The position numbers were made by a program, and so were the translations under genes. The notes under the pieces are model-generated. The model saw only the letters and a list, made by a program, of their open reading frames with translations. It was not told where the DNA came from and ran no database searches. Of a DNA stretch of 64,000 nt, positions 8,981 through 36,058 are shown in pieces. The stretch's first letter is position 1. The number at the start of each line of letters is the position of its first letter. The DNA comes from Haloterrigena alkaliphila (GTDB lineage Archaea; Halobacteriota; Halobacteria; Halobacteriales; Natrialbaceae): positions 3,658,001 through 3,722,000 of the forward strand of contig NZ_CP071462.1 in assembly GCF_017352155.2 (NCBI RefSeq). The letters run 5' to 3'.

Positions 8981-9055
8981 GCTCCGTTGGTGTAGTCCGG
9001 CCAATCATTTCGGCCTTTCGAGCCGATGACCTGGGTTCAAATCCCAGACGGAGCA
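8981..9055 (+). tRNA. tRNA-Glu (UUC)
   Basis: A 75-nt cloverleaf. The acceptor strand gctccgt pairs with acggagc and is followed by discriminator A. The anticodon stem tcggc/gccga encloses the 7-base loop ctttcga, giving anticodon TTC (UUC). The T arm is ctggg ttcaaat cccag. No CCA is encoded. The 3' part is repeated downstream (see the next entry). Confidence 0.96.
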
Positions 9056-9056
9056 C

Positions 9057-9174
9057 TCTTCTGAACGAACGAAGTGAGTGAAGAAGGAAGCGCACGCTCT
9101 GGGATTTGAAGTAGACCAGTCGCGCGCAGCGTAGCGAGCACGTCTGGGCGTAGTTCAAATCCCAGACGGAGCAC
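9057..9174. repeat. tRNA-tail palindromic element behind tRNA-Glu
   Basis: Bases 9153-9174 repeat exactly the last 22 bases at the tRNA-Glu 3' end (9035-9056). Between them, 9098-9110 is an inverted 13-nt copy of the same T arm (matches 9154-9166 in reverse complement), so the two outer arms can fold into a hairpin. The loop contains AGTCGC (9118-9123), a GC-rich stretch gcagcgtagcga (9126-9137), and cgtctgggcgtag leading into the direct copy. The same core occurs behind tRNA-Val at 35.9 kb. The rest of the 320-bp gap up to 9375 holds nothing recognisable. Confidence 0.8.
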
Positions 9175-9375
9175 GTTCCCGCGAATAACATCCACTCGAG
9201 TTCTCACGGTGTACAGGCCTTGAGCAAAGAGATCGCCATCCCCACTCGAGCGAGCTAATTCCGGCTCGGTCTGACAAACGAACAAACAGTAGATTTCAGT
9301 CGGGCCGAAAGTCCACTACGCGACGCCAATCCGTTTTGGAGAGGAGTTCAAGCAGCGTGTCGCTGAAGAAGGCTC

Positions 9376-35842: not shown

Positions 35843-35917
35843 GGGTTGGTGATCTAGTCCGGTTATGATACCTCCTTCACACGGAGGAAGTCGGCAGTTC
35901 AAATCTGCCCCAACCCA
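35843..35917 (+). tRNA. tRNA-Val (CAC)
   Basis: A 75-nt cloverleaf. The acceptor strand gggttgg pairs with ccaaccc and ends in discriminator A. The anticodon stem cctcc/ggagg encloses ttcacac, giving anticodon CAC. The T arm is ggcag ttcaaat ctgcc. No CCA is encoded. Its 3' end is duplicated downstream. Confidence 0.96.
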
Positions 35918-36058
35918 CTAATTTTGCTGCGAGCAATTTCACGAGCAGCAAATTCGTTATGTTGGGCAGATTTGAACCAGACGAGTCGCAGCCCGGGAAG
36001 CGAACGCAGTGAGCGACCCGGAACGTCTTGGCGTGGTTCAAATCTGCCCCAACCCACT
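35918..36058. repeat. tRNA-tail palindromic element behind tRNA-Val
   Basis: Bases 36036-36058 repeat exactly the 23 bases at 35897-35919, the tRNA-Val 3' end. An inverted copy of the T arm is at 35964-35978 and can pair with 36035-36049 over 15 bp. The loop has AGTCGC (35984-35989), gcagtgagcga (36006-36016) and cgtcttggcgtg leading into the direct copy. A separate hairpin-like pair of gcagcaaatt sequences lies near 35922-35953. The organisation parallels the element behind tRNA-Glu. Confidence 0.8.

Follow-up and report, generated by a model that had tools for sequence, protein, structure and literature searches.

What places two further copies of a tRNA 3' end, one of them inverted, directly behind the tRNA gene that they resemble? 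The question is posed by tRNA-Glu(TTC) of the haloarchaeon Haloterrigena alkaliphila, which lies in the 64,000-nt stretch of contig NZ_CP071462.1 analyzed here (the window). Mobile elements of archaea dock chiefly at tRNA 3' ends, and a sequence-only reading of the locus offered three accounts of the copies: a remnant att site, a small mobile element attaching itself to tRNA genes, and an RNA that mimics the tRNA 3' end. The best explanation, which we hold with about as much doubt as confidence, is that Halobacteria harbor a family of small DNA elements, apparently non-coding and targeted to tRNAs, which duplicate the tRNA 3' end.

The direct copy is exact over 22 nt: positions 9153-9174 are identical to 9035-9056, i.e., to tRNA-Glu from G53 to one base beyond A73. 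The 13 nt TCTGGGATTTGAA (9098-9110) are the exact reverse complement of the T-loop and the 3' strand of the T-stem. Both copies had been noticed in the sequence-only reading and both hold; the inverted one, described there as a copy of the T arm, is real and reaches further, with 22-nt arms (9036-9057 and 9089-9110) that are 82% complementary, and thus represents the tRNA 3' end rather than the T arm alone. Its T-arm portion is exact and its acceptor portion is decayed. If the tRNA segment T54-A73 is called X and its inverse X', the parts follow in the order X, hairpin A, X', hairpin B, X, so that the three tRNA-end copies form a zigzag with a hairpin at both turns (Table 1). The tRNA-Glu region folds far beyond dinucleotide shuffles (z = -4.0, 0/200). 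The sole other tRNA gene in the window, tRNA-Val(CAC), is followed by a complete unit of the same family (35843-36056).

Table 1. Parts of the two tRNA-linked units, numbered from the first nucleotide of the window.
Feature	Position	Strand	Basis and remarks
tRNA-Glu(TTC)	8981-9055 (9055/6)	+	ARAGORN, Rfam RF00005; 3' part T54-A73 (X) at 9036-9055
Hairpin A, tRNA-Glu unit	9057-9087	+	Directly 3' of the tRNA; fold of 8981-9175
X', tRNA-Glu unit	9088-9110	-	tRNA 3' end copied in inverse orientation, decayed in part; 22 nt, 82%
Hairpin B core, tRNA-Glu unit	9111-9153	+	Class GTAGA-CCAG...CTGG-GCGTAG; fold, covariation over 135 cores
X copy, tRNA-Glu unit	9154-9173	+	Exact 20-nt duplicate of T54-A73; identity extends to 9153-9174
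tRNA-Val(CAC)	35843-35917	+	tRNA calls; same arrangement 3' of the gene
Hairpin A, tRNA-Val unit	35918-35956	+	Sequence and fold
X', tRNA-Val unit	35957-35976	-	GTTGGG-CAGATTTGAA; one base short of the exact inverse
Hairpin B core, tRNA-Val unit	35977-36036	+	60 nt, above the limit of the scan pattern
X copy, tRNA-Val unit	36037-36056	+	Exact, tRNA-Val T54-A73

The tRNA-Glu arrangement belongs to a large family of units behind haloarchaeal tRNAs. A BLAST-type search of the H. alkaliphila genome returns 23 matches, and most of those inspected lie behind tRNAs. Six genomes of the genus each have 11-19 matches to a general pattern (an inverted T-loop, 28-58 nt and a T-loop) and none to its reversed form, used as control, which excludes a chance origin. 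These counts are lower bounds because hairpin-B cores above 58 nt escape the pattern; the tRNA-Val unit of the window is missed for this reason, its core being 60 nt long. Of 160 general-pattern matches examined, 145 are located immediately 3' of a tRNA and on its strand, at about thirty isoacceptors; among the remaining matches in the genus, nine are attributable to islands or neighboring insertions. A stricter pattern, used to scan the phylum, occurs in 75 of 81 genomes from the order to which H. alkaliphila belongs and in 2 of 312 others, again with no control match. In the H. alkaliphila genome, a copy of X stands within 250 nt downstream at 25 of 45 tRNA loci and upstream at two.

Units measure ~75-120 bp (hairpin A, X' and hairpin B), contain no gene or transposase, and are patchy across isoacceptors and species. 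At tRNA-Glu, e.g., a similar hairpin A is present in Halorhabdus, Halomicrococcus, Natronolimnohabitans and Natribaculum, and other haloarchaea have no unit. With the Rfam covariance models, the threshold is reached by the tRNA alone, with no family for the unit, and no description of the units was found in the open-access literature searched.

The arms of a unit match the tRNA beside which it lies. Over 145 units, X and its own tRNA agree at 18.8 of 20 positions (perfectly in 87); the sequence-only reading had proposed to check whether copies are placed behind tRNA genes and correspond to the tRNA upstream, and this is what is seen (145/160 and 18.8/20, respectively). Within the variable 12 nt of X, 10.9 match the own tRNA, as compared with 5.7 for shuffled partners. 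The anchored match of X' to the local tRNA spans 9.6 nt versus 6.6 nt after shuffling (the maximum over 1000 shuffles is 7.5), its local identity residing mainly at positions 62-64. Base 57, which is either A or G, is concordant across the tRNA, X' and X in 131 of the 145 units, and at tRNA-His, the T-loop of which is unusual, the X copy is exact. Cores follow another rule: the core TCAGGGAGGAGCTTYGCTCCGACCGTGG and its close variants are found at five isoacceptors (Pro, Met, Glu and two Ser), with arms that fit each tRNA. Since cores recur at unrelated tRNAs and both arms are local, the arms would be either copied from the target or corrected to it.

Hairpin-B cores fall into several classes defined by conserved internal loops, with stems that vary freely. 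The core singled out by the sequence-only reading (AGTCGC ... cgtct-gggcg) does occur, as only one among these classes. In a covariation set of 135 cores from ten length classes, inner stem pairs are 81-97% complementary versus 8-59% when slid, and many pairs have changed on both sides. The tips of hairpin B repeat the motif GA-GC-GNA-GC-GA, which has tandem G-A mismatches and a GNA loop, in 57 of the 135 cores, as compared with 0.1 in shuffles; this combination of mismatches and loop gives very stable small DNA hairpins.

Comparison of related genomes points to gain and exchange of units. At tRNA-Leu(tag), genome G001 has a tRNA-proximal 94-bp unit that its sister species G002 lacks, and the flanks match; this is the sole insertion that is clean on both flanks. 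An apparent insertion at tRNA-Glu of Haloarcula mannanilytica, as compared with H. rara, was not counted: the downstream flanks are unalignable. In arrays, the proximal X is nearer to the tRNA sequence in eight cases, equal in nine and worse in one. Both the clean Leu insertion and the layering of arrays point to gain on the side nearest the tRNA. Turnover may affect part of a unit: the tRNA-Glu units of the sister species G000 and G004 have hairpin A in common and differ in hairpin B, and a megaplasmid of Natrinema thermotolerans carries hairpin A and X' of the window unchanged, followed by another hairpin B. The latter locus (L412 5910-6160, CP031304.1) also holds a gene resembling tRNA-Glu that is not called by ARAGORN; its 5' acceptor strand is changed, and its anticodon arm contains a hairpin-forming insert of ~35 nt. 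Many units are vertically conserved, e.g., the Leu(tag) hairpin B is kept in five species. Behind tRNA-Ser(tga) of genome G065 (L509), five units are packed within 550 nt, with X copies and cores that alternate, a pattern that suggests tandem duplication of a two-unit block.

Several known systems resemble the units in part. Short, non-coding, repeated, palindromic and transposase-free sequences are known from Haloquadratum as SMRs, PATEs and MITEs; the SMRs are ~80-110 bp long and their mobilization is enigmatic (PMC3119063). SMR-A enters PATE/IS605 elements, and neither SMRs nor PATEs duplicate their target (PMC3119063), whereas the units duplicate 20-22 nt (X) and so depart from the absence of target duplication that marks PATE and REP sequences; none of the Haloquadratum repeats bears arms copied from a host tRNA. 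A MITE would combine a target duplication with terminal inverted repeats that it shares with a known transposon; the units have a duplication, but their inverted repeats correspond to the T arm of the tRNA, and no partner transposon was identified. REP-like and other extragenic palindromes are likewise intergenic and present in many copies per genome, but the units are strictly tRNA-linked and have tRNA-specific arms, and 27 of 80 genomes in the order lack the IS200-type transposase Y1_Tnp (PF01797), among them several that are rich in units (e.g., G246, G114, G314).

CRISPR arrays and casposons grow in a polarized manner beside a fixed neighbor, duplicate a repeat of ~20 bp and stack differing spacers. 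Insertion polarized at one array end is also found here (the Leu(tag) insertion, the 8/9/1 gradient in arrays and the layering with islands); however, the inserts have a defined structure and recur, what is duplicated is the tRNA end itself, and 50 of 80 genomes in the order, that of H. alkaliphila included, lack Cas1 (PF01867). Cas1 and Y1_Tnp are thus ruled out as required general agents by their absence from 50/80 and 27/80 genomes, and no transposase, Cas1 or IS200 protein could be tied to the units. The attC sites of integrons are similar only in the way they work: their hairpins are conserved in structure, variable in sequence, equipped with conserved internal loops and arranged in arrays. 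Folded sites of this type, with conserved internal loops and variable stems, are what the covariation in ten length classes reveals; unlike attC sites, the units have arms that are the tRNA T arm and no cassette genes, and no integron integrase was found at them, integrases of any kind adjoining only a few units.

Integrase genes near the units at first led us to suspect att sites. Archaeal tyrosine-integrase elements have att sites in tRNA 3' ends (reviewed in PMC8371274); they target the tRNA 3' end, duplicate it in part, leave the tRNA intact and are found at the same loci as the units. An intact tRNA followed by a direct 3'-end copy on the far side is just what the units display (X 18.8/20, 145 units), such duplication is typical of integrases, a Haloquadratum prophage is accompanied by a 22-nt tRNA duplication (PMC3119063), and three of nine integrase genes in the H. 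alkaliphila genome lie less than 1 kb from a unit. That the units are relics of integrase islands is nevertheless very improbable. At Pro(tgg), Arg(tcg), Val(gac) and Gly(tcc), att copies that belong to the islands, 13-45 nt long, stand right before an intact unit. At Pro(tgg) and Arg(tcg), where the tRNA is ~19 and 54 kb away, the tRNA 3' end is copied over 13-15 nt at the end of the island, and next come hairpin A, X', hairpin B and X; the layout is the same, with longer att copies, at Val(gac) and Gly(tcc) in a sister species and at further loci. At these loci the duplicated end is thus not the boundary of an integrase-bearing element: the unit is outside the islands, beyond their att copies, which stand just before hairpin A. 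These separate att copies imply that islands were inserted between tRNA and unit, and they speak against the remnant att site of the sequence-only reading. At tRNA-Gly of G000 and tRNA-Val of G002, conversely, a unit lies on the tRNA side of an island that itself lies on the tRNA side of an older unit, which implies later gain. The att interpretation also leaves X', hairpins A and B and the sharing of cores unexplained: a unit is ~100 bp long, has no integrase and, besides an inverted copy, contains two hairpins that covary. No source of the units emerged from searches of viruses, phages and plasmids: pattern scans of viral contigs for a source of attP gave only chance matches without the hairpin anatomy, and phage records gave no match covering most of the query. 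A conserved 777-aa protein of the genus that scores with PF00589 was dropped as a candidate recombinase; by eye its sequence resembles a PAS/GAF-type regulator whose N-terminus is integrase-like (L225, 2466374-2466865 of the H. alkaliphila genome, with relatives of ~740-777 aa in six genomes, all PF00589-scored and with domains judged by eye). Two other loci have open reading frames within the arrangement. At tRNA-Gly of H. alkaliphila (L053, 6900-8809), a 330-aa metallo-beta-lactamase-like ORF lies between two units, the second of which is preceded by a tRNA-end copy of ~28 nt; at tRNA-Ser of G003 (L089, 3142-4300), a low-GC 187-aa ORF takes exactly the place of hairpin A, from the tRNA to X', without an att copy.

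Could the unit instead act in the transcript, or arise from the tRNA itself? An RNA switch in the pre-tRNA trailer would resemble an attenuator with three segments, the tRNA 3' end (1), X' (2) and the X copy (3), which form mutually exclusive hairpins: 1:2 destroys the T arm, 2:3 frees it, and transcript length or a factor controls tRNA maturation. Every unit has this geometry; the units are co-oriented with the tRNA and have covarying stems and an X' complementary to the local tRNA. Folding of tRNA plus trailer was predicted for 101 units (unmodified RNA at low salt): 71 keep an intact T stem when the unit is complete, 26 if the transcript stops after X' and 7 with a shuffled X, suggesting that X' would unfold the tRNA and that the X copy would sequester X', so that the tRNA still folds. 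Such a role differs from the mimicry of the tRNA 3' end considered in the sequence-only reading. The same predictions leave the T stem intact in 67 of 101 with a foreign X and in 69 with a wholly shuffled trailer. A foreign X is thus as good as the own one, which points to duplication, not pairing, as the origin of local identity in the acceptor part; a switch does not explain this match, and the X copy may merely neutralize X'. Moreover, the units are patchy among isoacceptors and species, and their hairpin cores are swapped wholesale. We therefore consider a regulatory switch unlikely. Slightly less likely still is endogenous copying, in which replication or repair switches strand twice (X, X', X) and leaves hairpins A and B at the turns. 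The exact zigzag order, the three copies of the same tRNA end and the invariably local arms are as such copying predicts, but the turn is always at T54, and the cores are recurrent families, shared by unrelated tRNAs and different genera, which local copying does not make.

A tRNA-targeted element accounts for these features as follows. A unit consisting of hairpin A, X' and hairpin B would be gained directly behind the tRNA gene and would leave a duplication of 20-22 bp, from T54 to the tRNA 3' end; the tRNA would remain intact, and older units and islands would be pushed downstream. Arms would become local through templated strand switching at insertion or through later correction within the palindrome, with some recombinase or replicative strand switch acting in trans. 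In the transcript, the X copy may pair with X' and keep it off the tRNA, making the insertion tolerable. Anatomy, distribution, local match of the arms, covariation, one clean insertion and layering can be read in the sequences; mobility beyond mere duplication, the way in which the arms become local, and the trans-acting recombinase or replicative strand switch are what we infer. Among the three accounts given by the sequence-only reading, the small mobile element is best supported, its mobility being subject to the same qualification. Several observations argue against a mobile element: one carried in from elsewhere is not expected to bear arms that fit the new tRNA, many units are inherited vertically, X' is local mainly at positions 62-64, tandem duplication occurs inside arrays (five units behind tRNA-Ser), the unit contains neither gene nor transposase, Cas1 and Y1_Tnp are not required, and only one insertion is clean.

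About half of the tRNA 3' ends in one genome bear a structured tail, and nearly all genomes of the order are affected. If the units are mobile, they would be a gene-poor element that rewrites its ends to match the host gene and keeps a record of the order in which events took place at every tRNA; if they act as RNA, tRNA transcripts would contain a three-segment switch. More tentatively, the units may constitute a new kind of non-coding element, the cores of which move between tRNAs and species, gain forward and backward copies of the local 3' end, stack chronologically and are tolerated because the third copy blocks the second. Should this be true, it would imply that haloarchaea possess an enzyme or a strand-switch process that recognizes the T-loop boundary of tRNA.
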